DNA of 64,000 nt from Halosimplex litoreum (GCF_016065055.1 NZ_CP065856.1:558001-622000); one strand, 5' to 3'. Positions 39,424 through 63,864 are shown, counted from the stretch's first letter. Numbers and translations: made by a program. The notes: a model not told the origin generated them from the letters alone.

Positions 39424-40389
39424 TTACGCCCCAGCGAACGCCGAGGCGATCTGACCGAGTTCGGCGATCGATAGGTCGCCGTTTGCGAAGGTCTTGGCCG
39501 CGTTGCCGAGATCGGAGATATCGATGGTGCCGTCGTTGCCGGCGAACCGGTCGACCGGGTCCGCCTCGACGACGGTGACGGTCAGGGTATCGAACGTCGT
39601 CGACCGGTCGCCGGCGGTGACGTCACCGGAGACCGCTACCGCGGTGCCCGCGGAGGCGTTCTCGGGGACCGTGGCTTCGATCGCCACGGTCGCCGTCCCG
39701 GTGACGTTTTCGATGGTGACGACCGTCCCGTTCGCCTCGCTCGCCGCGACGATGGGGAGCACGCTCTCGTTGGCCACCGACGTGTCGGTAACGGAGACGT
39801 TCGCGAGCGCGGGATCGAATTCGTGAGTGACGGTCAAGTTGCCCGCGGCGTTGTCGACGGAGGCGGTCACCGTCACGACCTCACCGGGTGCGGCCTCCGC
39901 AGTATCGAGCGCCTGTGAGACGACCAGGGGGTCCTCCACGACGTCGATAGTCGTCTGGACGCTCTCGTTGCCTGCACTGTCCGTCGCTCGCCCGTCGATC
40001 GCCATCTCGCCCGTGGATTCGTTGGCCGTCAGTTCGTAGGTGACCGCGACCGTCGCCCCCTCGGAGAGACCCTGGAAGCTCGCGACCAGCCCGTTCGCGG
40101 TCGCCTGGGGAGCGATCGCGAAGTCGGAGACGCCCGCAGCCTCGCCGTCGATCGTCGCCGACACGTACTCCGCACTCCGCACTTCACCGCTGAACTCCTC
40201 GTTGACGGTCAGGCTACCACCGCTGGCCTGCGCCGTGAACGTCACCGTCGCGGTACCGCCCGGTGCAACTGTCTGACTGTCCACACTGCGGGACGTCTCG
40301 TTGACCGCCGCCGCGGGTGCGGCCGCAGCCGTCAACGCGAGCAGCCCCAGCGCGAGCGTCAGTACTGGAACGAGTGCTTTCGATCGCAT
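39424..40389 (-). CDS. secreted two-beta-domain protein with dockerin-like tail
   Basis: The 321-residue product has a signal peptide (about 1-28) and a first beta domain (about 33-155) very similar to the N-terminal domain of the S-layer protein (shared AEY...TIDG-AAGVSDFAI and NGLVASFQ). A second, PGE-VTVTA-type beta domain follows (about 155-275), then the array's C-terminal module (about 280-321), ending SIAELGQIASAFAGA. Its EF-hand loop is degenerate (first acidic position lost). There is no membrane anchor. A promoter candidate is at 40411-40420. The layout of two beta sandwiches plus a dockerin-like tail recalls a minimal scaffoldin; this is inference. Confidence 0.83.
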   Translation of the reverse strand: MRSKALVPVLTLALGLLALTAAAAPAAAVNETSRSVDSQTVAPGGTATVTFTAQASGGSLTVNEEFSGEVRSAEYVSATIDGEAAGVSDFAIAPQATANGLVASFQGLSEGATVAVTYELTANESTGEMAIDGRATDSAGNESVQTTIDVVEDPLVVSQALDTAEAAPGEVVTVTASVDNAAGNLTVTHEFDPALANVSVTDTSVANESVLPIVAASEANGTVVTIENVTGTATVAIEATVPENASAGTAVAVSGDVTAGDRSTTFDTLTVTVVEADPVDRFAGNDGTIDISDLGNAAKTFANGDLSIAELGQIASAFAGA

Positions 40390-40410
40390 ACATCCGGTAA
40401 GTATATGCTA

Positions 40411-40420
40411 CTACTTTTAG
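40411..40420 (-). promoter_or_regulatory. TATA-like element of the two-beta-domain gene
   Basis: CTAAAAGTAG on the minus strand lies 22-31 nt before the ATG at 40389. Confidence 0.45.
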
Positions 40421-40562
40421 ATTGAGGTCCCGGTCTCAACGAGGATACTCGGCGGCCCACCGCGGGCGAACGAGGCCGTCGAACACCGGTCCCATCGGGT
40501 CGGCCCTCTCAGCCGTCCACCGTCTCGCGAGTCGGTCCCCGGCCGTCGCCGCAGGACCCGGA

Positions 40563-42497
40563 TCAGCTGGCCGAGAAGGCCTCGGCGACCGACCCGAGCT
40601 CGTCGATCGTGAGTCTGCCACTCGAGAAGGCATCGGCGGCGGCCCCGAGTTCGCCGATGTCGATCCGGCCGTCTGCGTCCGCGTCGTACTCGGCAGCCCC
40701 ACTGCCGGGCTCGTAGACCACGTCCCTCGGGAGCTGTGTCTCCTCTTCGACCGGCAGCGTCACCGTCGCCGAATCCGTCGCCCCATCACTGGCTTCGACG
40801 GTCAGAGTCGCGGCGTACGTCCCCGAGTGGGCGTAGGTGAACGCGACCGTCTCGCCGGTCGCCTCGACCGCCGAATCCCCGTCGAAGTCCCACCGATACG
40901 CCGCGTCGTCACTGTTCGCGGTCGTGTTCGCACGGAACGTCACCGACTCACCGACCGCTACCGAGTCGGGAGCGACCCCGAACGCGGCCGTCGGCGTCGG
41001 GTCTCCCCCGTCGAGAGCCAACACCTGCGTCCCCTCGATCGACTCGGTGCCCGCGGTGAACCGCACCGTCACCGCTTGCCGTCCGGACGCCGGGGGCGTC
41101 CACTCGACGGCGTGGCCCGCGTCGACGCGTTCGAACGCCCCGTCACCGTCGGTGTCCCAGGACACTTCGACGCCGTCGAGCGGTTCCGCCAGCGTCCGGA
41201 GCGTCCCGTCCTCGGAGGCGAACATCGGCTTCGTCTCGAAGACCTTCCACGCGGCGGCCGGGTCGTCGGAACCCCCGCTCATCCACCGTTCGTGGAACGA
41301 GGCGAACGACTCGCCCGTCTCCGCGCGGAACTGTCGCTCGAAGTCGCTCCCCGCGGAGTCGGCGAGCAGGTCGAGCAGCGACTGCCGGCCGTACTCGGCG
41401 ACGTACGAGGCGACGAAGTAGTGGGCCTGGTCGTAGCTGGCCGTCCACTCCAGCAGCGCGTCCTCGGAGGGCTTCGACAGGTCGTCGTAGTACGGGAGCG
41501 TCGAGGACTGCTCGTAGGAGGCGTGACCCTCGATCAGGAAGTTCCAGCCGCCGTCGGTCTCGGTGGTGGCCTCGTACTGCCCGAGATGCGCGAGTTCGTG
41601 GACCAGCGTCGTCCGGACCCCGTGGACGGTCTTCCCGTTCGCGACCACCACTGTGTCGGGCGCCACCGCGTACGACCGTGCCCGGGGCTCGGCCAGTTCG
41701 AACGTGACGGTCTCGGGCAGTTCACCGGCCCGCTGTTCGTAGCGCTCGTAGACCGTCGGGAGGTCCGGTTTCAGCGCGGCGAGGACGATCCGGTCGTTGC
41801 GCGAGAGGGGCTCGGCCGACCGCAGGACGAACCGCTCGGTGTCTTCGAGCGTCCCCGGTTCGTACGCGCGGAACGACAGCGACACCGTCTCCGTCGCGTC
41901 CCGATCGGTCGCCGCCATCGTCACGGTCAGTTCGACCGCGCCCGGGCCGGTGAACTCGAACGCCGTCGGCTCGGCCCCGACGCGGGCCACCGGCCCGCTC
42001 GCCGAGACGTTCGCCACCGTCGCACCGCTGCCCACTTCGTCGGTCGCCCGCAGTTCGAGTCGTTCGCCGGTGAGCACCCTGTAGCCGACCGACGACAGCG
42101 CCTCGCCGTCCCGGTCGACGAGCGTCTCGGACAGCGAGAGTTCGACCGGCGTTATCTCGACGGTCTCGGTGATCACTCGGTCGTCGACGTGGGCCTCGAC
42201 GGTCACCGTCACCGGGGCCGCGCCCACGCGGACGGTACAGTTCGCGTGTCGGATGCAGCGGTTGGTCCCGAGTTCGCCGTCGTTGCGCCAGACGAGCGTC
42301 GCCCCGTCGGGCAGCGTCGCCTCGTCGACCGCGATCGTGACCGAGTCGTGGGGCTCGGGCGTCGGGTCGTCGACCGAGACCGCGAACCCCTCGCTCCCGG
42401 TCGAGCCCGCCGCCGCGTCGGCGGCCCCGCCCGCGGCGAAGAGGGCGGCGCCGACCAGCAACAGCGACAGCACCGCGGCGTAGTCTCGCGTCGGCAT
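40563..42497 (-). CDS. secreted HExxH metallopeptidase with PKD domain and dockerin-like tail
   Basis: The 644-residue product has a signal peptide (about 1-30), beta-rich N-terminal domains and a zinc-peptidase domain with His300-Glu-Leu-Ala-His304 and a third ligand candidate Glu322 (EGHASYE), the gluzincin arrangement. A PKD domain follows (about 505-585; YRWDFDGD, FTYAHSGTY), then the 56-residue C-terminal module (589-644) with the perfect EF-hand loop DADADGRIDIGE. ATG 42497 is preferred to GTG 42500. A TATA-like TTATAC is at 42524-42530. It has no anchor of its own. The substrate is unknown. Confidence 0.86.
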   Translation of the reverse strand: MPTRDYAAVLSLLLVGAALFAAGGAADAAAGSTGSEGFAVSVDDPTPEPHDSVTIAVDEATLPDGATLVWRNDGELGTNRCIRHANCTVRVGAAPVTVTVEAHVDDRVITETVEITPVELSLSETLVDRDGEALSSVGYRVLTGERLELRATDEVGSGATVANVSASGPVARVGAEPTAFEFTGPGAVELTVTMAATDRDATETVSLSFRAYEPGTLEDTERFVLRSAEPLSRNDRIVLAALKPDLPTVYERYEQRAGELPETVTFELAEPRARSYAVAPDTVVVANGKTVHGVRTTLVHELAHLGQYEATTETDGGWNFLIEGHASYEQSSTLPYYDDLSKPSEDALLEWTASYDQAHYFVASYVAEYGRQSLLDLLADSAGSDFERQFRAETGESFASFHERWMSGGSDDPAAAWKVFETKPMFASEDGTLRTLAEPLDGVEVSWDTDGDGAFERVDAGHAVEWTPPASGRQAVTVRFTAGTESIEGTQVLALDGGDPTPTAAFGVAPDSVAVGESVTFRANTTANSDDAAYRWDFDGDSAVEATGETVAFTYAHSGTYAATLTVEASDGATDSATVTLPVEEETQLPRDVVYEPGSGAAEYDADADGRIDIGELGAAADAFSSGRLTIDELGSVAEAFSAS

Positions 42498-42523
42498 CAC
42501 GTCACCGCGATGGGCCAGTCGGC

Positions 42524-42530
42524 GTATAAG
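42524..42530 (-). promoter_or_regulatory. TATA box of the PKD metallopeptidase gene
   Basis: CTTATAC on the minus strand lies 27-33 nt before the ATG at 42497. Confidence 0.6.
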
Positions 42531-42637
42531 CGTTGCTACAGCGCCGACGGTGGAACTGCCGTCGCTACGAAGCGCGAAAAAACGGAGAAAGTGCGTCGAC
42601 CCGTGTCGGGGGTCAGTCGTGGTCGTGGCGGGTCGGC

Positions 42638-45600
42638 TTAGCTGGCCGAGAAGGCCTCGGCGACCGAACCGAGCTGGCCGATGTCGAGTTCGCCACTCGA
42701 GAAGGCCTCGGCGGCCGAACCGAGCTCGCCGATGTCGATCAGGCCGTCGTTGTCGCCGTCGTACTCGGCGGCCGCACTACCCGGCTCGTAGACCGCGTCT
42801 TCCGGGGTGTCGTCGGTCACCGCTTCGACGGTCAGCGTCGCGGTGACGCTGTCGTCGCCGTTGTCGCTGTCACTGACCTCGACCGAGAGGTCGGCCGTGG
42901 TCGTGTTCGCGACATCAGGCGCGGAGACCGTCACGTTGGCCTCGACGGTCAGGTCGCGGAACTCCGCGCTGGAGTCGGGCGCGACACTGAACGTGATGAC
43001 GTTGCCGCTAACGTCCGGGCCACCGGACAGCGAGACGTTCTCGCCGTCGGCGTCAGTGACCGAGACGCTGTTGGCGCTGTCGAGCGTCGCGGCGTCCGGA
43101 ATCGTCACCGTGAAGGTGTCCGTGTCGCCGTCGTCGCTGACGTTCATCGCGTCGAAGGTCAGCATGTGCTCGTTCGTCGTGTTCGCGTCGACCGTGCTCG
43201 GGTCGAGGTTGACGTTGTCGAGCATGACCGCACCGGGGTCGACGGGAGCCTCAACGGACACGTCGACCGTGTCGTTGACGAACGCCTTGCCGACCTGCGT
43301 GCGGGTCGGCTTGCTCGCCTCGACGGCGAACTCGCCGGCCGAGTCGAAGGTGACGTTCGCAGTCTGGTCGATCGAGACGGTGTTGACCACGTCACCGGAC
43401 GCGTTCCGCACGGTCAGCGTACCGGTGGTCTGGCGGTCGAAGTCCTCACGGGTGAGCGTGAACATGACCGTATCGTTCTGCGCGATGTCGGTCGTGTTCG
43501 CGGCCAGCGAGAGGTTGACCTGCTCGTAGACGTTCGTGGTCGCGACCTGGAAGCTCGCATCATCGGACGCCTGCGCGGTGTCCGTCACGAGGTCGACTTC
43601 ACTGCCGGTGATCGAGTCATCGACAGTGTAGGTGATCGTGCCGGATTCGGTGGTCGTGAAGTCGAAGTTGACCAGGCCTTCGTCGGTGAGCTTCGACTGG
43701 GCGCCACCATCGAGGGCGCCGCTAATCTCCACGCCAAGGAGGTCGAGCTGGTCACCGTTGGCGTCAACGGCGTTCAGCACGAGCGAGTAGTCCGAGCTCG
43801 GCTCGAGGTCCTCGGGCGTGTCTTCGAGCGTGATGTTGCCCGTGTTGATAGCGATCTGTCCGTACGCCCCGTTAGCCGTATCGAGCGAGGTCGAGACGTT
43901 CAGCGTCTGCGGCGCGGCCTCGGCGGTTCCCTGCTCGGGCGCGACCGACACTGCGCGCGTACCGTTCTCGTTGACCGTCACGGTCTCAGAGTTGCCAGCA
44001 GTCGTCGCGTCCGGACCAGTCTCGTCAGAGAGGTCGTCGAGCTGGAAGCTCGCGTTGACTGCACTGAGATCGACATCGACCTTGCCGAGCGCGCTGCCGT
44101 CGCGCGGGTCTTCGACGGTAACGTTCATCTCGGAGACGAGACCGAACGTCAGGTCGTCGCCACCGAGGGTGGTGGTGATCTCCGGCTCGACCACGTCGAG
44201 GGTCGTGGAGCCAGTCCGGGATTCACCGTCGTCAATCGTGATGTTCAGCGGTGCGGTCGAGTTCTCCGCGCGGAGTTCGACCTGCAGCGCGTCGTTGGTG
44301 CCGTCACCGTCGGTGTCGACGGATGACGGGGCCGTGACTTCCGTCACTTCGGCCGCCGGTTCGTATGAGACCGTGAAGTCGTCGAGGGCCGTCCCGTTGA
44401 CGATGTCACCATCTTCGGTGATCGTCAGGTTGTGGACCTCATTCGCGCCCGCGAGGGCCGCCGAGCGGTTCGACGAGATCTCGTAGGATTCGACGCCAGT
44501 AACCGAGATCGCAGCTGCCTCATCGATCCGACTGTCGTCGTACGCACTGTTAGCGACTTCCAGATCGATGCTACCGGTGGTGTCGAACGAGACGTTCTCG
44601 GCGATGTAGTCACCGTTGTTCACGGAGCTGAAGTCCTGAACAACAGTGCCGCCAACGCCGCCAACTTTCACCTGACCATCCGGACCGTGGATGACGAGCG
44701 TGGTGTCAGTCTCGTAGTTGTTAGCTGTCTGGGGCGAACTGGCGTTGAAGGTCACACCGGTTAGTACGACGATGCGGTTGTTCAGCGGCGTCCCATCGCT
44801 GTCCGTGACCTGCAGGCTTACATCCTGCCGGGCGTCGTCGATAGTGGCCTGGCTCGGACTCAGACTGTTGTAGCTGTCACCGAGGACGGGGAGCGTCAGC
44901 GACTCGCTGACTTCCGCGCCGTCGTCCGTGTGTCCTGTCACATCTATCGACACTTCGCCAGCCTGTTCGGGGTTGAGGCTGCCGAAGGTTGCCGTACTAC
45001 CGTCCTGGCCCTCGTTGGCGCCATCGAGGAGAACGCTCTGCTCCTCAATGCCGATGTCGGGTGCGCTGATGGTCACCGTCGCGTCTGCCAACGCGTTGCC
45101 ATCAGCAGGCTTCTGGTTGTCACTTCCGACAACGTCAACGTTGATGGACTGAGCACCATCACCGTCAGCGGCGCCGGTCACCGAAATGTCGCTTTCCTGA
45201 ACGTTGACGATGAGGTCCTGATCCGCGGTCGCCGTAGCCGCGGAGTCGTCACCGAGGAGGTCCGGGGCCGTAGGCGAACTGAACGCCGTGTCCTCGTAAC
45301 CGTCAATCAGGTCCGTCCCGTCGTCGGTTTCGAGCTGTGCAGTCACTTCCGCAGCGTTCACCGTCGGCGTCGCTTCGATCACGACAGCCTCGGTTCCGGC
45401 ACCATCACTCTGCGCAGGCACGACGTGGATGTAGTTCGTCTCATCCTGGTCGCCATCAGTATCCGAGTTGAGCAGCGTACCCTGACTGATGTAGACATCA
45501 GCTGTTGAGTCGGTGTCGGATACGACCGTGCCGTCGAACGGGCCCGTGATGTTGAGGTAGTTGGCACCGGAGCTGTCGTATGCTCCAGCACCTTCTCCTG

Positions 45601-47323
45601 CGAAAGTGCCAAGCGGGAGAACATTCCCGGCCTCGTCCTTAGCCGTAACCGTGTAGGTCTCGGAGAAGCCCTGGAAGTTCTCGCCATCAGCGGTGATCGT
45701 CACGTTCGCGTTAGCAGCGCCAACGTCGATAGTTTCGACATCGGCGGTGTCACCAGCGTCGTGGACGTACCACGTGCGTGCGTCGTTCAGCGTTGCGGTA
45801 ATCGAGAAACCACCGTTGGAGCCGGTAGTGTCGACACCGACCAGACTACCGGCACCGCCGCTCTGCGTGCGGATCTCGATTGAATTACCAGTTACAGGAT
45901 CACCATTACTGTCCACCAGATTCCCGCTAATCGTCACTTCGTCGTTGTAAGCGGGGCTACTGGGGTCGACAGTGAAGTTCTCGACGATATTGCGGTCTTC
46001 AACCGTGACCGTGGCACCGCCTTCGTTGTTAGCAGCAGTACTGTCGATGTTGACAGCGTCAGTAGTGGTGCTGATACCAACGAACCAGTCGCCAGCACTG
46101 TCGAAGACACCGTCAACGGAGAACGCACCGGTACTCGTACTCCCTGTCTCCTGGGTGGCATCACCCTCGTCAACCAGTGCGTAGTTGATGCTCTCCTGAT
46201 AGAGATCACCGGTTTCGGCTTCAGTATCGTACCACTGGTAGACGTTCGCGTCGATGGTGTTCTCCGTACTCAGGACGACCGTACTCGGATCGGCCGTAAC
46301 GTAGTAGTCGTCAGTCGTATACGCCGCGTTGTCGACTTCGCTTCCAGCAACAATGAGCGACCCGTCCTGGTTGGTCGCCTTCGCCTGGGAGAACGTTGCA
46401 TCCGTTGTCGTGCCCGTCAGCGTGATCTCTTGGTCGTTGTAGTTGTGACGGACAACAACCTCACCACCGATGTCTTCCGGATTATCGCTGACACGGAAGG
46501 TAACGTCGTCACCGGCGGTGGTTCCTTGTGAATTGACGGCGATCGTCGGCTGAGAGAGTGCCTGATCAACCGTCTGCGATGTCGTCGTATCTTGTAGCGA
46601 TGAGGTGCCACTCGTTGCGATAACGTACGTGTCAGCAGTCACAGTGACAGTGTACGTCCCGCCACTAACGCTGTCGAACGAGTAGTCCCCGTTCGAATCC
46701 GTTGTCGTGGTTGCGACGACCTCAGCAGCGTTGTCGTCGGTAAGTTCGACCGTCGCGCCCTCGATTGCTGACGCGTCGCCAGCATCAGTAATGGAGCCCG
46801 AGATACTCCCTTCCGCGAAGGCAAACGTGGCGCTATTGGCTGAGTCACTGGCGCTAACGTCCGTGACTTCGTAAGTCAGCCCACTGGCGCTCGCATCTGC
46901 ACCGGAGGTATCGAGACCAGAGAGGGTCAGGTCGAAGTCAGCGGTCCCATCAGTGCCGTCAAGCTGTGTGACGTCAACAGTAACAACGCCGGTTGTTGTG
47001 TCGAAGCCTGTTACAGAAGCAGCAGCGTCACCATCACTTCCGGGGTTGATCGTAACCCCAGCATCGGCGCTACTCAGATCAACGCCATTCTCCTGTAGAG
47101 CGGAGACGTCAATCTCAACATCGCCTGTTGTATCGACTATGATATTATTCGTTACATGCTGTGTGCCAGCATCGGCTGACCCAACGACGAGGTCGTTAGG
47201 TGTACCGGCATCACTGACTGCGGCCGCCGCCGTCCCACTCACTGCCACAGTCGCCCCGAAGACGGAGCCGACCATGAGCAGGGAGAGGAACAGCGCGCGC
47301 AGCTTCTCGTTGGTTCCTGTCAT
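42638..47323 (-). CDS. giant surface glycoprotein with dockerin-like tail
   Basis: The 1561-residue product begins with an S-layer-type signal peptide (MTGTNEKLRALFLSLLMVGS). It contains many Ig-like/carboxypeptidase-regulatory-like beta repeats (for example ISGSITDAGDASAIEGATV) and many Asn-x-Ser/Thr sequons. A domain near 1395-1500 is shared with the peptidase at 54112-56385 (DGDTDTFTVTIP, SVTDADGE). It ends in the 56-residue module with loop DGDNDGLIDIGE. The PGF-CTERM helix expected for such a protein is missing. GC of the 5' half (about 44.8-47.3 kb) is visibly lower than that of the 3' half and neighbours. An RHH-type gene ends 19 bp upstream. It may be a second lattice or sheath protein. 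Confidence 0.86.
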   Translation of the reverse strand: MTGTNEKLRALFLSLLMVGSVFGATVAVSGTAAAAVSDAGTPNDLVVGSADAGTQHVTNNIIVDTTGDVEIDVSALQENGVDLSSADAGVTINPGSDGDAAASVTGFDTTTGVVTVDVTQLDGTDGTADFDLTLSGLDTSGADASASGLTYEVTDVSASDSANSATFAFAEGSISGSITDAGDASAIEGATVELTDDNAAEVVATTTTDSNGDYSFDSVSGGTYTVTVTADTYVIATSGTSSLQDTTTSQTVDQALSQPTIAVNSQGTTAGDDVTFRVSDNPEDIGGEVVVRHNYNDQEITLTGTTTDATFSQAKATNQDGSLIVAGSEVDNAAYTTDDYYVTADPSTVVLSTENTIDANVYQWYDTEAETGDLYQESINYALVDEGDATQETGSTSTGAFSVDGVFDSAGDWFVGISTTTDAVNIDSTAANNEGGATVTVEDRNIVENFTVDPSSPAYNDEVTISGNLVDSNGDPVTGNSIEIRTQSGGAGSLVGVDTTGSNGGFSITATLNDARTWYVHDAGDTADVETIDVGAANANVTITADGENFQGFSETYTVTAKDEAGNVLPLGTFAGEGAGAYDSSGANYLNITGPFDGTVVSDTDSTADVYISQGTLLNSDTDGDQDETNYIHVVPAQSDGAGTEAVVIEATPTVNAAEVTAQLETDDGTDLIDGYEDTAFSSPTAPDLLGDDSAATATADQDLIVNVQESDISVTGAADGDGAQSINVDVVGSDNQKPADGNALADATVTISAPDIGIEEQSVLLDGANEGQDGSTATFGSLNPEQAGEVSIDVTGHTDDGAEVSESLTLPVLGDSYNSLSPSQATIDDARQDVSLQVTDSDGTPLNNRIVVLTGVTFNASSPQTANNYETDTTLVIHGPDGQVKVGGVGGTVVQDFSSVNNGDYIAENVSFDTTGSIDLEVANSAYDDSRIDEAAAISVTGVESYEISSNRSAALAGANEVHNLTITEDGDIVNGTALDDFTVSYEPAAEVTEVTAPSSVDTDGDGTNDALQVELRAENSTAPLNITIDDGESRTGSTTLDVVEPEITTTLGGDDLTFGLVSEMNVTVEDPRDGSALGKVDVDLSAVNASFQLDDLSDETGPDATTAGNSETVTVNENGTRAVSVAPEQGTAEAAPQTLNVSTSLDTANGAYGQIAINTGNITLEDTPEDLEPSSDYSLVLNAVDANGDQLDLLGVEISGALDGGAQSKLTDEGLVNFDFTTTESGTITYTVDDSITGSEVDLVTDTAQASDDASFQVATTNVYEQVNLSLAANTTDIAQNDTVMFTLTREDFDRQTTGTLTVRNASGDVVNTVSIDQTANVTFDSAGEFAVEASKPTRTQVGKAFVNDTVDVSVEAPVDPGAVMLDNVNLDPSTVDANTTNEHMLTFDAMNVSDDGDTDTFTVTIPDAATLDSANSVSVTDADGENVSLSGGPDVSGNVITFSVAPDSSAEFRDLTVEANVTVSAPDVANTTTADLSVEVSDSDNGDDSVTATLTVEAVTDDTPEDAVYEPGSAAAEYDGDNDGLIDIGELGSAAEAFSSGELDIGQLGSVAEAFSAS

Positions 47324-47342
47324 ATGTTTTTGTAGTTTGTCA

Positions 47343-47528
47343 TTAAGTGTCTGATTCGTCCATGTCGAAGTGCTGTCGGAGGATATCCTCCAGCTTGACA
47401 CTGACGTTTGATCCTTCAGCGACGGCCTCGGCACGTACTTGGCGCCACACTTCTCGATCGATCTCGATCGAGGTGTGTGTCGTGTCGCTGCCGCCCGAAC
47501 TGTTCTCGTCGGTCATCGCCGTTGTCAT
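47343..47528 (-). CDS. ribbon-helix-helix-like small protein
   Basis: The 61-residue product has the core HTSIEIDREVWRQVRAEAVA then SVKLEDILRQHF, a beta strand and two helices in the pattern of RHH/CopG-type DNA-binding proteins. An ATG four codons later (47516) is an alternative start. It ends 19 bp before the giant surface glycoprotein gene, so it is probably co-transcribed and may regulate it. Confidence 0.72.
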   Translation of the reverse strand: MTTAMTDENSSGGSDTTHTSIEIDREVWRQVRAEAVAEGSNVSVKLEDILRQHFDMDESDT

Positions 47529-49645: not shown

Positions 49646-49654
49646 AGAATAGCG

Positions 49655-53479: not shown

Positions 53480-53558
53480 ACCACCACTCACCTCCGACCG
53501 GCGAATAAGCGTATCGCTCCGGTGACCGACCTGCAGTACGTCGCCCGAACACGCGCCG

Positions 53559-53711: not shown

Positions 53712-53788
53712 ATCCGAACCAGGTGAATCAACGGATAAACACTTTGTGGAAGATTTTCGGCGGAACGACAGCCGGTCCGGGCGCGCGG

Positions 53789-54111: not shown

Positions 54112-56385
54112 TCAGCTCGCGGCGTACGCTTCGGCGACGGCTCCCAGACCCCTGATCGAGAGGTCGCCGCCCGCGTACGCCTCCGCTGCCGCCCCGAGCT
54201 CGGTGATCCCGACCAATCCGTCCTCGTTCGTGTCGAACTCGGCGGCCACGCTACCGGCCTCGTAGACCGCGCCCTGGGGCAGCCCCGCCTCCGTCACCGT
54301 CACGGTCGCGGTGGCGTTCCCGTATCCCGCGGCCGATACCGTCAGCGGGTAGGTCCCGGCGGACGCCCGGACCGATACCGTCGCGTTCCCCTCGGACCCG
54401 GTCGTCTCCGTCACGCCGAGTGCCGCCGACGTGACCGACGCATCCGCCACGGGGGATCCGCTCCCGTCGGTCACCGTGACCGTGACGTTCGCGGAACTGT
54501 TGGCCGCGACCGTCGAGGGCGACAGCGAGACCGAGAGCAGGTCCGGCGCTGCCGGCTCGACGGTCAGCGTCGTGTTCGCGCTGGCGGTGCCGCGCGCGCT
54601 GTCCCGAACGGAAGCCGTCACCCGAACCGAGGCGTTCCGGTCGACCACCGGCGAGCGAAGCGAGAGCGCAACCGAGACCGTCCCGTTCAGGTCGGCGGTC
54701 GGCGAGATCTCGAACAGCACCCGGTTGTTCGAACCGCCGTCGGCGTCGGTCAACTCCGGACTCCCGGTGACGGCGACCGCGTTCCCGTCGGCGTCGGTGA
54801 CGGAAGCGTTCAGGCCCTCCGCGACGACGCCCACGTCGGTCGGGAGCGTCACCGAGACCGTGTCCGTGTTCCCGTCACCGCTGACCTCCCCGACCTCGAA
54901 CGACACCGTCCCGTCGACCGTCTCGTTCGCCGAAACGGTGGCCGGCGATATCGACAGGTTCCCGACGGTCACGGGCGGCGTGGACTCCGCGGTCGAGGTC
55001 GCGTACACGCTGGAGAGGTCCGACGGGATCGACGGCGCATCCCGGGTCCCTGTGAAGCGGTCGAGCGAATCGCCCACCGACGCGTTGGTCACGGCGACGA
55101 CCTCCTCCCTGAACGTCGCGTAGGAGACACTGGCGTTGTCGACCGTGTTGATCCGGCGAAACACCGTTTCCAGCGTGGCGTTGCCCCCGAACCCGCGTAT
55201 CGTGGCGTCGAGCGAGCCCAGCACGCGCCGTCCCTTGTAGTAGTTTTTCAGCTGTGTGGTGTCCACGCCGTCCCGGAGGACGCTGTCGGCGTACCGCGTG
55301 GTCTCGTCGTCGAGATACGACCGGAAGCCCGCCTCGCTCAGATAGCCCGCCCGCCAGGCGTAGTACCCGCCGTAGTAGTCCGCCGACCCCTCGGTGAACC
55401 AGTCGAGGTCGGAGTCGACGTCCTCCGGCAACCTGTCCCCGTCGAGCCACGCCTGACGGGTGTGAATGTACTCGTGTGCGACCGTCTCGGCGAATCGCGA
55501 CGTGGACGCGCCCACCCAGAACGCTCCGCCACCGCCCCGACCCCCGGGTCGGATCGGCTCGGGGAGCAGGAACGCCGTCACGTCGGGGTCCCTGTCACCG
55601 ATAGCCAGCTTCCCGGAGACGTTCGCCACGTATCCCGCGGTCGTCGACGCCGACAGCGGCGGCGCGGCGTCCGCCCCCTCGACGACCGTCACCGTCTGGT
55701 TGGTTCCGGCCGCCTGCGAAGTCCCGTGCTCGCCGAGGAACATCCGACCGTCGGCGCCGTATCCCGACCGGACCGCTTCGTAGGTCGTGTCTATCGACGG
55801 GTCGTCACCGAAGGTCAAATACCCAAGCCCGTTCGTGAGTTGCTGACCGTCGATGAACGCCCAGTCGTCGGTCTCCACCGTATCGTATCCGCCCGAAGCA
55901 GTCACGTTCGTCGCGACGGTGTAGACGAGTCGCCCCGTCGTGCGTTCGCCGTACGACGACCTGAGTTCCCATCGCCCCTGTTCCGTGTCGTAGGTGAAGT
56001 TCTCGGACGAGGTGACCTCGTACTCGACCGGGAGGCGACTGACCGTGGGGTATAGTTCTACAACGTCGCCGGGGAGCGTCGCCTCGTAGGTGACCGTCAC
56101 CTCTCCCGGGACGCTCGGCGTCCGATTCACCTCGAATCGTTGTCGGATCGTGGGCGCCGCGTCGGTCCGCGCGCGGTCGGAACCCATCTCGACGTAGCTG
56201 ACCGTCGAGTTGTTCGCGGCCCCGACGGTCGCGGGAGCACCACCGATCAGATCGGTCGGCCCGGACGAGTCGACGGTCCCAACCGCGGCCGCGGCCCCCG
56301 GCGAGACCAGGCTCGCGAGCACGGCGAGAGCGACGAGAACGAGCGCCGTTCGACCCGGCGAGCAGACAGACCGGAGTGTATCCAT
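54112..56385 (-). CDS. secreted HExxH metallopeptidase with dockerin-like tail
   Basis: The 757-residue product has a signal peptide (about 1-34), a beta-rich N-terminal domain and a peptidase domain with His304-Glu-Tyr-Ile-His308 and Glu332 (WFTEGSADYY), an M1/M61-like gluzincin site. A beta domain shared with the giant glycoprotein follows (about 450-575), then a carboxypeptidase-regulatory-like domain and the 56-residue C-terminal module with loop DTNEDGLVGITE. A TATA-like AACTTACT is at 56411-56418. No anchor is present. Confidence 0.88.
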   Translation of the reverse strand: MDTLRSVCSPGRTALVLVALAVLASLVSPGAAAAVGTVDSSGPTDLIGGAPATVGAANNSTVSYVEMGSDRARTDAAPTIRQRFEVNRTPSVPGEVTVTYEATLPGDVVELYPTVSRLPVEYEVTSSENFTYDTEQGRWELRSSYGERTTGRLVYTVATNVTASGGYDTVETDDWAFIDGQQLTNGLGYLTFGDDPSIDTTYEAVRSGYGADGRMFLGEHGTSQAAGTNQTVTVVEGADAAPPLSASTTAGYVANVSGKLAIGDRDPDVTAFLLPEPIRPGGRGGGGAFWVGASTSRFAETVAHEYIHTRQAWLDGDRLPEDVDSDLDWFTEGSADYYGGYYAWRAGYLSEAGFRSYLDDETTRYADSVLRDGVDTTQLKNYYKGRRVLGSLDATIRGFGGNATLETVFRRINTVDNASVSYATFREEVVAVTNASVGDSLDRFTGTRDAPSIPSDLSSVYATSTAESTPPVTVGNLSISPATVSANETVDGTVSFEVGEVSGDGNTDTVSVTLPTDVGVVAEGLNASVTDADGNAVAVTGSPELTDADGGSNNRVLFEISPTADLNGTVSVALSLRSPVVDRNASVRVTASVRDSARGTASANTTLTVEPAAPDLLSVSLSPSTVAANSSANVTVTVTDGSGSPVADASVTSAALGVTETTGSEGNATVSVRASAGTYPLTVSAAGYGNATATVTVTEAGLPQGAVYEAGSVAAEFDTNEDGLVGITELGAAAEAYAGGDLSIRGLGAVAEAYAAS

Positions 56386-56410
56386 GCCCTGGGATCCGGG
56401 TCCACCCGTA

Positions 56411-56418
56411 AGTAAGTT
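56411..56418 (-). promoter_or_regulatory. TATA-like element of the 757-residue peptidase gene
   Basis: AACTTACT on the minus strand lies 26-33 nt before the ATG at 56385. Confidence 0.5.
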
Positions 56419-56511
56419 TCCGCTACCGTGGGGATCACGCGGTAACGAGTGGTTACTCCGGTGACGGGTCGGATCCGAGAAGCGGGGGTCGGCCCGCCGC
56501 GAGCCGGGTCG

Positions 56512-59235
56512 TCAGCTCGCCGCGAAGGCGTCTGCGACCGTGGCGAGGTCGGCGATCGAGAGGTCGCCCGCCGCGTACGCGTTGGCGGCGTCCGACAGCT
56601 CGGTGATGCTGATCCGACCGTCTCGGTCGTTGTCGTCGAACTCGGCCGCAGCGGTTCCCGGGGAGTAGACTGCCCCGGGCGGAACCGTCGCGTTACTGTC
56701 GACTGTCGCTTCGACGTTCAGAACCGAATACTCCTTCGCGCCGCCGGTCACGTCGCGTAGCTGTGCGGTGTACTCGCTGTCGTAGTACTCCCCGTAGACC
56801 TGCGCGGTCCCGGAGTCGACCGTCGCCTCCCAGTCGGACCGGTCGAACGTGACCGTCAGCGTCGACCCGTCGTAACTCACGCCGGTCGCGTTGACCCGAC
56901 CGGCACTGGCGTTTCGCAGATAGAACTCGTCGGTGACGTCGACGGTCGCCGACGGGGCCTGGGCCGTGACGGTGACCGTCCCGTCGGCGGTCGTCACGTC
57001 CGACGTGTCGACGATCCGGTCGACCATCCGCATGTTACCCTGGACGACGGGGTCGACCATCTCGCGTTCGACCGTCCCCGTCTCGTCGAGCCACTCGATG
57101 ACCGCCTGGGCCATCGTGGCGTTGTACTCGTGGGTCCACATCGACTCGCTCATCGGGTAGTCCGAGGCCCCGGTTCCGATGTAGCTGTTCGTCGCGAGTG
57201 TGTACGTGGCGTCCCTATCCAGCGGTTCACCGTCCACGTGGACGTCTTCGAGTCGTCCGAAGCCCTCGTCCAGAGCCGTGTCTGGGATGTCGGTCTCGTT
57301 GTGGGGGACCCACTCGAACGTCGTGCCGCTGGACTGCAGCCCGATGCTCGGGCCACCGTCGTTCTGGTAGACGAACATCTGACTCTCCAGGATCGCGTAC
57401 AGCTCCTGGCCGGTCACGTTCATCGTGACCACCTGGTTCCCGAACGACAGCGTCGACCGAATGTGACTGGCCGTGATGTTCGGGCCGTAGGTCGCCGACC
57501 CGCGGATGCCGCCCGAGTTCGTCAGCGCCACGTCCGCGTCGGTGTAGTTGCGGACCCCCTCGGCGATGGCGTTCCCCATCGCGGTCTCGTCGGTGTAGGG
57601 GTCGACCGCCGTCGAAAGCGGGATCTCCGTCTGCGCGATAACGGCGTCGAGCCCGTATTCGGCGCGGACGCCGTCGATGTACTGCGCCCACGTGCTGTTC
57701 CGTGAAAGATCGTCGGTAACGTCGTAGGTCTGGCCACCGACGGGGGTCACCGAGCCGTTCCGGACGGTCAGCTTGAGCTCTGCGACGCCCTGTGCGCCGC
57801 CCGGCGGGTGGGTTACGACCGCGCCGCCGACGACCTCGGGTTCGAACGATCCGTCGCGGTCGCCCGTGACGATCGCGTCGACGTACTGCGTGTCGTTCGC
57901 GAGGTCGCGAGCGAGTTCGTTGCCGATCGGCGCCAGCGCGACGACCACGTCTACGTTCGCCTCGGTTTTCAAGTAGCTGGCCTCGCGCTGTGCGGCCGCG
58001 GTGTAGTTCTCGACCGCGTACCCGTTACGGCTCAGGACGTTGCCGGCCTTGCTGTCGATCGCGCCGTCGGCGACCGAGACGATCCCGATCCGCTGGTCGC
58101 CCCGCTGGACGACTGTGTGATTCTCCGTGCCCGGGAGCTCCTGGCTGGCGCTTCGGACGTTCGCGTTGACCCAGGGGAACGCGGAGCCGTTCGACGCCGC
58201 CTCGAAGATCGAGAAATCCCCGGTCTCGGCGGACTCGTCGTAGTCCAGTTCGTGGTTCTGCACCGCCTCCGCGGCGGGGTCGATGATGTTGAGCGCGCGG
58301 ATCGGCGGTTCCCAGCCTGGCGAGACCCGTCCCCGCAACGCGTGGGGGCTGATCTCGTCGCCGTTGCCCACGACTGCGACGGGACCGCCCACGGCCGCGC
58401 GACGGTCGTTGACGAGGGAGATGAACCGCCCCATCGTCCCGTCACCGGCCGCTTCCGAGCCGATATCGGTGTACGCCAGCACCGTCACCGTGGTACCGGT
58501 AGCCGCCGACTCGACTGCCTTCGGCTGGATCTTGTACGCACCGAACGTGTAGCTCAGCGGGCCGACGATGCTCTCGAACTGCTCGTCCGCACGTGCGGGC
58601 ACCGTGTCGGTGCCCGTCTGTACGTCGTCGATAGCGAGCGTCCCGCTGCCGTCGTCGACGCTCCATTCGCCGTCGCTGTCGGGCGGTGACGTCGTGGTGG
58701 CGTCGGTCACTTCGACGAGGACGCCCTCGTAGGCTTCCCTACTCGCGTTTCCGGTAGCGAGCGTCACCGGTTCGGGAACGGCTGTCGTCCCCGTGACGGT
58801 CGCCGATACGGCCCCCGAGGCCTGGACCTCCGTGAGACCGTAGTACTCCGTAATCGGTGCCGTGATCTCGACCCTATCCCCGACCGAGACGGAAACGGAT
58901 CCGCCCGTGTAGACGTACACTCCGGAGTAGGCGCCGGTCCCGTTCTGGATGTAGTACCCGTCGCCGTCGTCCCGCACTGCCGTCACGACGCCGCTGGTAG
59001 TGACGGTTTCGCCAGCGTACGGCGAGACGTCGGTCGACTCGTTCGGTGGTTCCTGTATCTCTCGGATCGATACCTGTGGCGCGTCGGACGACTGATTCGC
59101 GAGCGAGTCGCTCGCCGTAGTCGCCACGTCGGCACCGGACTCGTCTGCATCGGGTGCCGTCACGGCCAGTGCGGGTGTGGCTCCGGCCAGCATCGCACTC
59201 GCGGTGACGAGTAACACGACCAGTGTTCGTCGCAT
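56512..59235 (-). CDS. secreted 5'-nucleotidase/metallophosphatase with OB domain and dockerin-like tail
   Basis: The 907-residue product has a signal peptide (about 1-25) and an OB-fold domain of the type found before secreted nucleases (SPYAGETVTTSGVVTAV, YYIQNGTGAYSGVYVY; about 55-190). The metallophosphatase/5'-nucleotidase follows (VGNGDEISP, NHELDYDE, ALTNSGGIRG, LATNSYIGTGASDYP; about 230-780). The usual first D-x-H motif reads TDIGS, so one metal ligand may be missing. A beta domain and the C-terminal module with loop DNDRDGRISITE end the protein. It likely scavenges phosphate or nucleosides at the surface. Promoter candidate at 59260-59267. Confidence 0.88.
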   Translation of the reverse strand: MRRTLVVLLVTASAMLAGATPALAVTAPDADESGADVATTASDSLANQSSDAPQVSIREIQEPPNESTDVSPYAGETVTTSGVVTAVRDDGDGYYIQNGTGAYSGVYVYTGGSVSVSVGDRVEITAPITEYYGLTEVQASGAVSATVTGTTAVPEPVTLATGNASREAYEGVLVEVTDATTTSPPDSDGEWSVDDGSGTLAIDDVQTGTDTVPARADEQFESIVGPLSYTFGAYKIQPKAVESAATGTTVTVLAYTDIGSEAAGDGTMGRFISLVNDRRAAVGGPVAVVGNGDEISPHALRGRVSPGWEPPIRALNIIDPAAEAVQNHELDYDESAETGDFSIFEAASNGSAFPWVNANVRSASQELPGTENHTVVQRGDQRIGIVSVADGAIDSKAGNVLSRNGYAVENYTAAAQREASYLKTEANVDVVVALAPIGNELARDLANDTQYVDAIVTGDRDGSFEPEVVGGAVVTHPPGGAQGVAELKLTVRNGSVTPVGGQTYDVTDDLSRNSTWAQYIDGVRAEYGLDAVIAQTEIPLSTAVDPYTDETAMGNAIAEGVRNYTDADVALTNSGGIRGSATYGPNITASHIRSTLSFGNQVVTMNVTGQELYAILESQMFVYQNDGGPSIGLQSSGTTFEWVPHNETDIPDTALDEGFGRLEDVHVDGEPLDRDATYTLATNSYIGTGASDYPMSESMWTHEYNATMAQAVIEWLDETGTVEREMVDPVVQGNMRMVDRIVDTSDVTTADGTVTVTAQAPSATVDVTDEFYLRNASAGRVNATGVSYDGSTLTVTFDRSDWEATVDSGTAQVYGEYYDSEYTAQLRDVTGGAKEYSVLNVEATVDSNATVPPGAVYSPGTAAAEFDDNDRDGRISITELSDAANAYAAGDLSIADLATVADAFAAS

Positions 59236-59481
59236 GCACCCGATCGTTGGATAGGAGTGGTTTAACTCGCGCTAAGAGGTGTGTATTCGGCTATAAAACG
59301 GTGGTAATCGATATATATCACGCTGGGAGCGCTCTCCACCGCTGCGGAACACCGGGTCGATTGCTCCGCCCGCCGCCCGGGTATCGGCCCAAGCGTGTGA
59401 GCGAACCAGCGACCCGCAGGGGGTCGAGGGACGGGGACTACCCGCTCGACAGTTCGTACGGAGGAGACGCTCTCACTTCGA
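59236..59481. other. intergenic region of the array
   Basis: No gene. Contains the promoter of the nucleotidase gene and AT-rich sequence at 59283-59320. Confidence 0.45.
59260..59267 (-). promoter_or_regulatory. TATA box of the nucleotidase gene
   Basis: AGTTAAAC on the minus strand lies 25-32 nt before the ATG at 59235. Confidence 0.6.
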
Positions 59482-61419
59482 TCAGCTCGCCGCGTAGGCT
59501 TCGGCGACGTCACCGAGCCCAGTGATGTCGAGGTCGCCGCTCGCGTACGTTTCCGCGGCGGTTCCGAGTTCCCCGATCCCGATCCGTCCGTCTAGATCCG
59601 CGTCGAACTCCGCAGCGGCACTCCCCACGGAATACACCGCGTCCGAGGGGATCCGACTGCTCGACTCGACGGTCAGCGTCGCCGAGGCGTCGGCGTACCC
59701 GTCCGCGGAGACGCTCACCGGGTAGTCGCCGGCGCTGGGCGCCTCGACCGACAACGTCGCGACGCCGCTGGCGTTGGTCGTGTCCGACAGCACGAGGTCC
59801 GAAATCGAAACCGTCGCGCCCTCGATCGGGTCACCCGTCGCGGCGTCGGTCACGGTCACGGCCACGTCGCTCGACTGGCCCGCCGTGACGTTGTCCGTCG
59901 AGAGCGACACGTCGAGGCTCCCGAGCGGCTCGTAGGTTCGATTCGTCTGGAGCCGGTACTCCGTCGTCGTGAACTCGTGGTCACCAGTCACCTCGACGTA
60001 GTGGATCCCGCTCGCAGACGCCTGGTACGTCACCGCCTGACTGTTCCCCGCCGAGATGTACGAGTCGGAAGCGACCTCCGACTGGTCCGGACCGTAGACG
60101 CGGAGCTGCGAGGTCTGGTCCTGTGGCGTCAGCGCGACGCGGAGTCCTTCGCCCTGGTCGAGTCGAACCTTGAAGAAGTCGGACTCGCCGCCCCAGAGCT
60201 TCCCGTCGTTGAACTCCTGGGTCAGCCCGGCGGCCGACTCGAAGTCGCCGTTCGGCGCGAAGTCGTCGTTCTCCGACGGCGCCACTACTTCGGTGTTCAG
60301 TCGGTACTCCGTCGTCGTCTGCCGGTAGTCACCACGGACTTCGACGTAGTACGTCCCGGTAGAGGGGAGCGCAGTCGTCAACCGAGCGGTGCCGCCGTCG
60401 CCGGCGCCGCCGAGGGTCAGTTGCTGTCTGTTCGGACCGTAGATGTAGTATTCGAGGTCCTGGCTCTCGGGGGTCAACCGCACGTCCAGCACGTCCGTGT
60501 CGTTGGCCTGGAGTTCGTAAAAGTCGCTCTCACCGCCCCAGACCTTCGCGTCGGTAAAGCCCTCCGACAGCGACGCCGCCGTGTCGAACTCCCCGTTCGG
60601 CTCGAACTCGTCGTTCTCCGACGGCGTCACGACCTCCGTGTTCAGCGTGTAGTTCGTCGTCGTCTGCAAGTCGTTTCCGGACACCTCCACGTAGTACGTT
60701 CCGTCGGACGACAGGTCGTCCGTGAGCCGAGCGGTCTCGCCCTCGTAGACGAGCCCATCCCCGACCATCTCCTCGCGGTTCGAGTCGTAGATTCGGACCT
60801 CCAGATCTCCGCTCTGGGGCGTCAGCCGCACGTCCAGCACGTCCGTGCCGTTGGCCTGGAGCTGGTAGAAGTCCGTTTCACCGCCCCAGATCTTCGCGTT
60901 GGTGAACCCCTCCGACAGCGTCGCCGCCGTATCGAACTCCTCGTTCGGGGCGAAATCGTCGTTCTCCGACGGCGCCACCACGTCGACATCGAGCGTGTAG
61001 TCCGTCGTCGTCTCCGAGTGGTCCCCGGACACTTCCAGGTAGTACGTTCCATCGGACGGCAACGCGGTCGTTAGCCGATCGGTCTCACCCTCGTAGACGA
61101 GCCCGTCCCGAACCATCTCCTCGCGGTTCGAGTCGTAGATTCGGAACTCCAGGTCTCCGCTCACGGGCGTCAACCGCACGTCCAGCACGTCCGTGTCGGT
61201 CAGATCGAGTTTGAAGAAGTCGCTCGACCCCGCCTCGATCTGCGGGCTGTACTCTCCCTCCTCGATCGAGGCCGCCGAATCGAACGAGTCGTTCGGTTCG
61301 AACGGATCGTCAGTCGCCACGTTTGATCCCGCGACCGCCGGTGCAACCCACGCCGTCGACGCGCCCCCCAACATCAGGACTGTCAAGAAGAGCGCGCGAT
61401 ACCATTTCGTCGACATCAT
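59482..61419 (-). CDS. secreted four-PPC-domain protein with dockerin-like tail
   Basis: The 645-residue product has a signal peptide (about 1-30) and four tandem pre-peptidase C-terminal (PPC)-type beta domains, each opening with a (D/E)-F-PN-x-FD-AA motif and closing with GTYYVEVSGD-like strands (about 35-500). A carboxypeptidase-regulatory-like domain follows (about 500-588), then the 56-residue module with loop DADLDGRIGIGE. The last 150 residues are nearly identical to those of the next gene. No catalytic domain is seen, so it may be an adhesin or spacer. Promoter at 61439-61446. Confidence 0.88.
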   Translation of the reverse strand: MMSTKWYRALFLTVLMLGGASTAWVAPAVAGSNVATDDPFEPNDSFDSAASIEEGEYSPQIEAGSSDFFKLDLTDTDVLDVRLTPVSGDLEFRIYDSNREEMVRDGLVYEGETDRLTTALPSDGTYYLEVSGDHSETTTDYTLDVDVVAPSENDDFAPNEEFDTAATLSEGFTNAKIWGGETDFYQLQANGTDVLDVRLTPQSGDLEVRIYDSNREEMVGDGLVYEGETARLTDDLSSDGTYYVEVSGNDLQTTTNYTLNTEVVTPSENDEFEPNGEFDTAASLSEGFTDAKVWGGESDFYELQANDTDVLDVRLTPESQDLEYYIYGPNRQQLTLGGAGDGGTARLTTALPSTGTYYVEVRGDYRQTTTEYRLNTEVVAPSENDDFAPNGDFESAAGLTQEFNDGKLWGGESDFFKVRLDQGEGLRVALTPQDQTSQLRVYGPDQSEVASDSYISAGNSQAVTYQASASGIHYVEVTGDHEFTTTEYRLQTNRTYEPLGSLDVSLSTDNVTAGQSSDVAVTVTDAATGDPIEGATVSISDLVLSDTTNASGVATLSVEAPSAGDYPVSVSADGYADASATLTVESSSRIPSDAVYSVGSAAAEFDADLDGRIGIGELGTAAETYASGDLDITGLGDVAEAYAAS

Positions 61420-61438
61420 AGGCGGTGGTGAGCGCCTG

Positions 61439-61446
61439 TTATTAAA
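61439..61446 (-). promoter_or_regulatory. TATA box of the four-PPC gene
   Basis: TTTAATAA on the minus strand lies 20-27 nt before the ATG at 61419, consistent with a leaderless transcript. Confidence 0.6.
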
Positions 61447-61560
61447 TTGTTTTGAATTGGAATGTATGCTGTGGAGAAAGGAAACCGCAAAACGGCCGAT
61501 GTCGCTCCCGGATCCGAGCGGGAGCGAACTACCGACCGACGAGCCTACACCCGGATCCGA

Positions 61561-63864
61561 TCAGCTCGACGCGTAGGCCTCGGCGACGTCACCGAGTCCG
61601 GTAATGCCGAGACCGCCGCTCGCGTACGCTTCCGCGGCGGTCCCGAGTTCGCCGATCCCGATCCGCCCGTCGAGATCCGCGTCGAACTCTGCGGCCGGGC
61701 TCCCGGGCGAGTACACCGCGTCCGACGGGATCTCACTGTTCGATTCGACCGTCAGCGTCGCCGAGGCGTCGGCGTACCCGTCCGCGGAGACGCTCACCGG
61801 ATAGTCACCGGGGCTAGACGCCTCGACCGACAGCGTCGCGACGCCGCTGGCGTCGGTCGTCGCCGATACCTGGAGGTCGGATATCGAGACCGTCGCGCCT
61901 TCGACCGCGTCGCCGCTCCTGGCGTCGGTTACGGTCACGGTCAGGTCGGTCGGCTCGCTCGCGTTGATACTCGACGTGGACAGCGACACGTCCGCGCGAC
62001 TCGGGACCGTCGGTAGCTGCTCGATGGTACCGTTACTGTTCAGGACTAGCCGGTAGCCGGCCGACCGGTTCGAGGGGCTGGTGATCCCGAGGTAGTAGTT
62101 TCCGTCGGCCCGGACGGTGTAGCTGAACGAGACCGAGCCGTCGCCGAATCCGGTGTTGTCGTCCCGGGTCAGAACCGACCCGTTAGCGGCGTACAGCGTC
62201 GCTTCGAGGTCGCCGCCGGTCTCCTCCAGACTGACGTCGACCTGCTGGCTCGCGTTCAGCGGGACGAAGTAGTAGTCCTGCTCCGCGCCCGCGACGTCGA
62301 GGTCGCTGTACCGCCCCCGCGTCAGCAGCGGCGCGCTCGCGAACTCGTCGTTAGGCTCGAACTCGTCGGTTCGATCGACCTTTTGAGCCGACACGGAGTA
62401 GGCAGTCGACCGGTCGGTTCGGCTGTCCAGTTCGAAGTAGAACGTTCCGTTCTGGTTGGCGGTGTAGGTGACGCTCACGTCCGGTTCATTGAACGAGCCC
62501 GCTTCTCCCCTCGCGCTCCGCAACTCGGTCACCCGATCGGGGCCGAACATCCGAAGGCGGAGTCCCTGACTGGCGCCCTCCGTCGAGAACGTGATCTGTT
62601 CGCTGTCGTTCAGCTCCACCGCGTAGTAGTCCAGCTCCGACCCAGCCAGGTCGAGGTCGTCGTACCGACCTTCCGCCAGAGTGGTCGCGTTGTCAAACCC
62701 GTCGTTGGGTTCGAACCGGTCGGTCAAGTCCGGCGTCTGAACCGACACGGAGTAGTTCGTCGAGCGGTCGGTCCGGCTGTCCAGTTCGAAGTAGAACGTG
62801 CCGTTCTGGTTGGCGGTGTAGGTGACGCTCACGTCCGGTTCATTGAACGAACCCGCTTCCCCCCTCGCGCTCCGCAACTCCGTCACCTGGTCGGGGGCGA
62901 ACATCCGGAGTCCAAGCCCCTGACTGGCGCCCTCCGTCGAGAACGTGATCTGTTCGCTGTCGTTCAACTGTACCGCGTAGTAGTCCAACTCCGACCCCGC
63001 TAGCGACAGGCCGTCGGTCTGGCCCTCGGACAGTGTCGCCGCCGCCCCCAGCTCGTCGTTGGGTTCGAGGGAGTCGGTCAGGTCCGGCGTCTGGACGGAC
63101 AGCGAATAGTTCGTCGAGCGGTCGGTCCGGCTGTCCAGTTCGAAGTAGAACGTGCCGTTCTGGTTAGCGGTGTAAGTGACGCTCACGTCCGGTTCATTGA
63201 ACGAGCCCGCTTCTCCCCTCGCGCTCCGCAACTCCGTCACCCTGTCGGGCGCAAACATCCGAACGCGCATACCCTGAGTGGCCCCGTCCGTCGAGAAAGT
63301 GACCTGCTCGCTGTCGTTCAGCTCCACCGCGTAGTAGTCCAGCTCCGACCCCGCTAGGACCAGACCGTTAGTCTCTCCGTCGGACAGCTCTGTCGCCGAC
63401 TCGAACTGGTCGTTGCGCTCGAAGCGGTCGGTCAGGTCCGGCGTCTCGGTCGTCAGCGAAACCGTCGTCGGGGAGTCGCTCACCGTCGAGACTGCAAGAT
63501 AGAAGGTCCCGTTCTGGTTGGCGGTGTAAGTGACGCTCACGTCCGGTTCATTGAACGACCCCGCGCTCCCGCTCGCGCTCCGCAACTCCGTCGCCCCGTC
63601 GGGTGCGAGCAGTCGGAGTTGGACGCCTTGGTCGGCCCCCTCCGTCGAAACCGTCACCTGTTCTTTGTCCGCGAGGTCGATCTCGTAGTAGATCGACTCG
63701 TTACCGGGGATGTCGACCCCGTCGATCGTTCCGTCGTCCAGTGGCTGCGCCGACGAGACGTTGTTGTGGTCCGCGAGGGTGGCCGACCCGCTCGCACCAC
63801 CCACGGCCCCGGCCGCGAGTACTAGCATCCCGATCGTCCCGAGTAACAGAACCCTACCGTTCAT
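61561..63864 (-). CDS. secreted five-PPC-domain protein with dockerin-like tail
   Basis: The 767-residue product has a signal peptide (about 1-27) and five PPC-type beta domains, four of them 118 residues apart and almost identical in part (SFNEPDVSVTYTANQNGTFY recurs). A carboxypeptidase-regulatory-like domain and the 56-residue module with loop DADLDGRIGIGE follow. No enzyme domain or anchor is present. It is the outermost member of the array seen here and has its own TATA-like element at 63891-63900. Confidence 0.88.
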   Translation of the reverse strand: MNGRVLLLGTIGMLVLAAGAVGGASGSATLADHNNVSSAQPLDDGTIDGVDIPGNESIYYEIDLADKEQVTVSTEGADQGVQLRLLAPDGATELRSASGSAGSFNEPDVSVTYTANQNGTFYLAVSTVSDSPTTVSLTTETPDLTDRFERNDQFESATELSDGETNGLVLAGSELDYYAVELNDSEQVTFSTDGATQGMRVRMFAPDRVTELRSARGEAGSFNEPDVSVTYTANQNGTFYFELDSRTDRSTNYSLSVQTPDLTDSLEPNDELGAAATLSEGQTDGLSLAGSELDYYAVQLNDSEQITFSTEGASQGLGLRMFAPDQVTELRSARGEAGSFNEPDVSVTYTANQNGTFYFELDSRTDRSTNYSVSVQTPDLTDRFEPNDGFDNATTLAEGRYDDLDLAGSELDYYAVELNDSEQITFSTEGASQGLRLRMFGPDRVTELRSARGEAGSFNEPDVSVTYTANQNGTFYFELDSRTDRSTAYSVSAQKVDRTDEFEPNDEFASAPLLTRGRYSDLDVAGAEQDYYFVPLNASQQVDVSLEETGGDLEATLYAANGSVLTRDDNTGFGDGSVSFSYTVRADGNYYLGITSPSNRSAGYRLVLNSNGTIEQLPTVPSRADVSLSTSSINASEPTDLTVTVTDARSGDAVEGATVSISDLQVSATTDASGVATLSVEASSPGDYPVSVSADGYADASATLTVESNSEIPSDAVYSPGSPAAEFDADLDGRIGIGELGTAAEAYASGGLGITGLGDVAEAYASS
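62460..63570. repeat. 354-bp direct repeats within the five-PPC gene
   Basis: TCCGGTTCATTGAACGA begins at 62480, 62834, 63188 and 63542, exactly 354 bp apart. The surrounding 50-90 bp are almost identical in all copies. Confidence 0.92.

Follow-up and report, generated by a model that had tools for sequence, protein, structure and literature searches.

Secreted proteins with a common C-terminal module

We analysed a 64,000-nucleotide stretch of the Halosimplex litoreum genome (GCF_016065055.1, NZ_CP065856.1:558001-622000; the whole stretch is called the window below), in which unrelated secreted proteins, seven in number and encoded on the minus strand between positions 39424 and 63864, end in one two-helix module of ~43 residues. 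Adjacent to them lies the gene of an anchored S-layer-type glycoprotein with a ~120-residue beta-sandwich domain, for which we use the label CohL. The locus probably encodes a cohesin/dockerin-like surface display system that is built on an archaeosortase-anchored S-layer.

All features below are on the minus strand unless indicated otherwise. The gene artA (34526..35659; TIGR04125 319 bits, cut-off 75), encoding archaeosortase A for PGF-CTERM processing, is next to the glycoprotein gene (35741..39208). This glycoprotein, the proposed receptor or scaffold, matched halo_sig_pep, halo_surf_dom and PGF_CTERM over their cut-offs and consists of CohL at the mature N-terminus (38684..39055; CohL profile E 1.5e-27), BGTF and a PGF-CTERM anchor signal (35747..35830; E 5.9e-11), the sole one among the window proteins scanned. 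It may be the main S-layer protein, but the NCBIfam equivalog surf_glcprot_Halo reached 213 bits, below its cut-off of 1100, and other BGTF proteins are present in the genome.

A preliminary description had proposed one C-terminal module common to the seven secreted proteins, and this held: each copy, detected by profile match, was found at the coordinates given there, is in frame and ends 0-2 residues before the stop codon. Closest to the glycoprotein is the smallest of the seven (39424..40389), composed of a signal peptide, two CohL domains and a module with a shortened calcium loop (39427..39552). Both domains were detected with the CohL profile. The first (39937..40296) is 55% identical to the CohL of the anchored glycoprotein, and the second (39568..39921) also matched Pfam Cohesin at E 1.7e-4, below the threshold. 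The protein had been counted among the cargo; judged from its domain content, two CohL plus a module, an adaptor role is more likely for it than that of a client. A search against genome contigs returned no named relatives of it, and its single-sequence AlphaFold2 model was poor (pLDDT 52) and was not used.

The other six module proteins are a HELAH-motif peptidase-like protein with a PKD domain (40563..42500, domain scan; module 40566..40733), a giant S-layer-like glycoprotein with halo_sig_pep, which ends in the module and not in PGF-CTERM (42638..47434, likely start 47323; module 42641..42808), an M61-like metallopeptidase (54112..56385, Peptidase_M61 over cut-off; module 54115..54282), a 5'-nucleotidase-like protein (56512..59235, 5_nucleotid_C 102 bits; module 56515..56685) and two PPC-repeat proteins (59482..61419 and 61561..63864, PPC over cut-off in both; modules 59485..59652 and 61564..61731). 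Inside the cluster there is also an AglB/STT3-like oligosaccharyltransferase gene (51140..53491; AglB_L1 over cut-off, archaeo_STT3 at 111 bits not reaching its cut-off of 450). Altogether, artA, the anchored CohL protein, the adaptor candidate, the cargo and the AglB-like glycosyltransferase are found in about 30 kb. On the plus strand, an IS605 OrfB/TnpB-type gene (49774-51018; Cas12f1-like_TNB) is inserted among the cargo genes.

When hidden Markov models (HMMs) were built from six tails each, the seventh was always recovered at the C-terminus with i-E values of 7e-14 to 1e-23, whereas the best value among ~120 other open reading frames of the window was only ~0.003. Thus, sharing of the module goes far beyond chance. 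The gene at 31460-32128, for a secreted metallopeptidase-like protein with the motif HExxHxxGxxH and a lipobox-like signal (GGAC), has an internal stretch with a weak, probably fortuitous likeness to the module; we did not accept it as a module copy, as it lies away from the terminus and has E ~0.003.

The genome, a single contig of 4.16 Mb, contains 12 module copies, the N-termini of which are all Sec or Tat signals as assigned by eye. Eight copies belong to the cluster, including one on a NosD/beta-helix protein that starts 179 bases past the window edge, and these eight of 12 lie beside both artA and the S-layer-type gene, a clustering that the preliminary description had asked about. The remaining four are found elsewhere, on a PPC/PKD protein, an S8 peptidase, a Tat PQQ beta-propeller and a Tat GH10 protein.

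Features of the module and of CohL

The core of the module reads [A/D]-x-[YF]-D-x-D-x-D-G-x-I-x-x-x-E-L-x-x-A-A-x-x-[FY]-x-x-G-x-L-x-I-x-x-L-x-x-V-A-x-A-[FY], that is, a loop-helix with an EF-hand loop followed by a shorter loop-helix. The internal two-fold repeat is real: it is visible in the alignment and also in the AlphaFold2 model of CohL with the module, in which the helices span residues 138-149 and 155-167 and the module has a pLDDT above 90. The EF-hand loop is canonical in six of the seven window modules and one residue shorter in 39424-40389 (FAG-NDGTIDISD). Iterative search over the fetched loci gave one broad haloarchaeal tail family, in which the complete calcium loop is missing from most relatives and many have a shortened loop, e.g. 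YTNEDGVVDGDGLLDAAADFRQDDIDSDLLLDVAAAFR. In six of the seven window modules calcium could have a stabilising role; since the loops are shortened in relatives, it is not required family-wide.

Like Dockerin type I (PF00404), the module has two F-hand (loop-helix) repeats; of the two calcium loops of that family it has one in six of the seven window copies. No Dockerin_1 (PF00404) match was found in the genome, none of 30 module tails was listed with Dockerin_1 in the library scan, curated library scans of the module returned weak EF-hand matches only, and a PDB sequence search returned only generic EF-hand proteins. The earlier term ‘dockerin-like’ is appropriate as an analogy and not as a statement of sequence relationship.

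In the fetched loci the module was C-terminal in 43 of 47 hits; in two proteins (L115:11492-12880 and L105:8318-12937) it directly follows an N-terminal signal or leader, so its position is not strictly C-terminal. There was no clear cytoplasmic carrier among the 47 hits, the module never co-occurred with PGF-CTERM in the loci examined, and the profile scan detected PGF-CTERM in none of the seven window proteins. The extreme C-terminal position on unrelated secreted cargo recalls PGF-CTERM or type IX secretion system (T9SS) tails, and the module might be a sorting or processing signal for a dedicated sortase or export machine, its link to CohL being indirect. We consider this unlikely, since the C-termini of the seven window proteins have neither a hydrophobic helix nor a basic end, the module is a confidently modelled folded two-helix domain carried by both Sec and Tat cargo, and such a signal leaves the covariation with CohL (see below) unexplained. 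An export signal was rejected on account of the missing hydrophobic helix and the two N-terminal modules.

The proposed partner, CohL, is probably a divergent cohesin as judged from profile comparison. It did not reach the cut-off of Pfam Cohesin (PF00963; best 22.2 bits, cut-off 24.1). Since an early iterative CohL profile had drifted into CARDB repeats, a restricted alignment (A3) was used. Comparison by hhalign with haloarchaeal Pfam cohesins gave 93% (E 3e-7), as against 38% for CARDB and 22% for CarboxypepD_reg-like, two other haloarchaeal beta-sandwich families serving as controls. The CohL profile also matched Pfam cohesins at identical places in genomes G016 and G102 (~1e-6), and in a single protein (L114:8067-10013) CohL is combined with Dockerin_1 and a Pfam cohesin of borderline score. 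Compared with the PDB, the AlphaFold2 model of CohL with the module (pLDDT 96.7, pTM 0.82) matched cohesins, e.g. 2xdh from Archaeoglobus (E ~2e-5), with a cohesin TM score of ~0.5. We use the wording ‘cohesin-like’ because these PDB matches, although they include cohesins, are led by pilin Ig domains (EbpB/EbpC).

Association of CohL with the module across haloarchaea

Module and non-transporter CohL are linked across haloarchaea by neighbourhood, co-occurrence and covariation. A PGF-CTERM gene with one to five CohL domains adjoins a module-ending gene in L090-L093, L098, L099, L103, L104, L107-L113 and L116; in several of these loci an S-layer-like module gene lies directly upstream of the gene for the anchored CohL protein, the gap ranging from a few bases to tens of bases. 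The relatives' cargo includes proteins of the multicopper oxidase, alpha-amylase-like and peptidase types. Repetition of receptor domains on the anchored protein, a feature of scaffoldins, was observed in the relatives (two to five CohL domains), compared with one CohL in the window. In L107-L110 the arrangement resembles a scaffoldin: PGF-CTERM proteins bearing four or five CohL domains in tandem adjoin a Tat multicopper oxidase that ends in the module.

CohL and module in cis on one protein are also common, as in the adaptor candidate, S8 peptidases and transporters, and the two might pair intramolecularly, or modules might self-associate among cargo, with no binding in trans to an anchored CohL. 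This is improbable given that six of the seven window module proteins have no CohL in cis and the anchored protein with CohL lacks a module; most neighbour pairs in relatives likewise lack a cis CohL, and the PGF-anchored proteins of L107-L113 carry two to five CohL domains and no module.

Among 392 haloarchaeal genomes, modules were present in 27 of 30 with non-transporter CohL and in 18 of the 362 others (Fisher 1.6e-26, the Fisher tests ignoring phylogeny and the CohL classes being roughly assigned by frame length). Genomes with only transporter CohL showed no such association (3/43 vs 15/319, p 0.36). As an independent control set we used 76 named S-layer loci, in which a module gene was adjacent in all four loci with CohL (Halolamina pelagica, Halorubrum alkaliphilum, Halostella pelagica and Halarchaeum rubridurum) and in one of 72 without (p 3.9e-6). 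The lone CohL-less locus with a module gene, from Haloarchaeobius FL176 (L190), seems by eye to have a different N-terminal domain in the position of CohL.

Across different cargo, module similarity was 0.54 within genomes and 0.32 between genomes (permutation p 0.0005). CohL similarity tracked module similarity once the remainder of the S-layer protein, the sole control for kinship, was taken into account (partial rho 0.40, p 0.014), a modest result from n=10 genomes. The modules could instead be traces of a recent shuffling in which genes for secreted proteins of an S-layer island exchanged C-terminal segments without having a receptor in common, and the near-identical tails of the beta-helix protein and both PPC proteins would fit this. 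Distant cargo of the same genome (GH10, PQQ, S8), however, has kept a diverged module, and the association with CohL recurs over several families, which makes shuffling a very unlikely explanation.

Besides the neglect of phylogeny, several points weigh against docking of the module to an anchored cohesin-like receptor. Many of the neighbourhood loci were picked through CohL itself, and part of the co-occurrence reflects CohL and module on the same protein. The 18 module-bearing genomes mentioned above had no detected non-transporter CohL, and in G161, a genome of the same genus, there is no cargo module and only one weak match, beside a transporter CohL. The hhalign comparison of the module with haloarchaeal Dockerin_1 gave 1.7%, and, as described, pilin Ig domains exceed cohesins among the structural matches of CohL. 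Finally, MMPL-type transporters also carry CohL, at their C-terminus and together with a calcium-less module in cis; for these a docking role is not obvious.

This cis pair on transporters is widespread in haloarchaea; large MMPL/RND-type transporters, named by eye, ending in CohL plus a calcium-less module were found in L047, L048, L050, L052 and L054, and a further example is G000:C1:650781-651113.

Possible surface display and its relation to known systems

In the cohesin/dockerin-like system that we favour, cargo without an anchor of its own would be exported by Sec or Tat. Its module, as the plug, would then bind non-covalently to CohL, the socket at the membrane-distal, outward-facing N-terminus of the ArtA-anchored glycoprotein. 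Docking would occur either directly or via the two-CohL adaptor, which may dock itself through its own module and offer two further sockets, like an adaptor scaffoldin. Enzymes, adhesins and the second S-layer-like protein would make up the docked set. The proposal of the preliminary description, surface docking of varied cargo, is well supported by the genome evidence and now has a candidate receptor; we infer binding of the module to CohL, surface retention and the S-layer role from that evidence. The idea that the module replaces the archaeosortase anchor applies to each cargo protein. The proposed receptor is itself archaeosortase-anchored, and the cargo would borrow the anchor made by ArtA.

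More tentatively, some haloarchaea may have a two-component S-layer, in which an ArtA-anchored socket protein and a plug-bearing S-layer glycoprotein encoded immediately upstream are locked non-covalently, the sockets being shared with secreted enzymes as a general enzyme display lattice. In SlaA/SlaB of Sulfolobales an outer lattice protein is likewise combined with a membrane-anchored partner (PMC10903991). The likeness of the haloarchaeal genes to such two-component S-layers comes from their adjacency. We know of no PGF-CTERM and no cohesin/dockerin-like lock in SlaA/SlaB, which were compared here by description.

Retention of haloarchaeal secreted enzymes at the surface in molar salt without a lipid or archaeosortase anchor would thereby have a specific answer with a named plug and socket. 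Cohesin/dockerin-type assembly would extend to S-layers, some of which may be two-component in haloarchaea, and the module would offer a salt-tolerant tag for protein display, about 43 residues long. The system may have been overlooked because the S-layer loci of Haloferax and Haloarcula that were checked yielded neither CohL nor the module. In the open-access papers searched we found no previous account, for haloarchaea, of a cohesin-like receptor that is anchored in the S-layer, depends on archaeosortase and goes with this module.

With the cellulosomal type I and II cohesin-dockerin systems of Clostridium and Acetivibrio, the locus shares a short loop-helix module of two repeats carried by diverse secreted cargo, a beta-sandwich receptor on an anchored scaffold, an adaptor with both elements, and multi-receptor scaffolds. 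Unlike cellulosomal dockerins, the module has no Dockerin_1 similarity and usually no complete calcium loop; anchoring is through PGF-CTERM/ArtA of an S-layer-type protein instead of SLH or LPXTG, and the cargo is mostly not cellulolytic. Cohesin and dockerin proteins outside cellulosomes, a trait shared here, are known from Archaeoglobus and ANME archaea, and in the latter S-layer-plus-dockerin proteins and multi-cohesin proteins have been noted (PMC9012536, PMC5244752). Those systems were detected through standard cohesin/dockerin models, whereas the present pair falls short of the corresponding cut-offs and is linked to archaeosortase-anchored S-layer genes of haloarchaea. In Natronoglomus, the dockerin of dockerin-bearing glycosidases was interpreted as substrate-binding (PMC10963439).

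Canonical Pfam Cohesin and Dockerin_1 each occurred in 56 of 145 haloarchaeal genomes, and in the genome of the window neither was over cut-off. A canonical cohesin and dockerin cluster at G043:C1:470364-491710 includes a 1260-residue multi-cohesin frame, likely a true haloarchaeal scaffoldin. The 2.7 Mb genome G002, of the same family, had 41 Dockerin_1 matches compared with two cohesin matches, and in G079 a GH10-Dockerin_1 gene is located inside a CohL S-layer locus.

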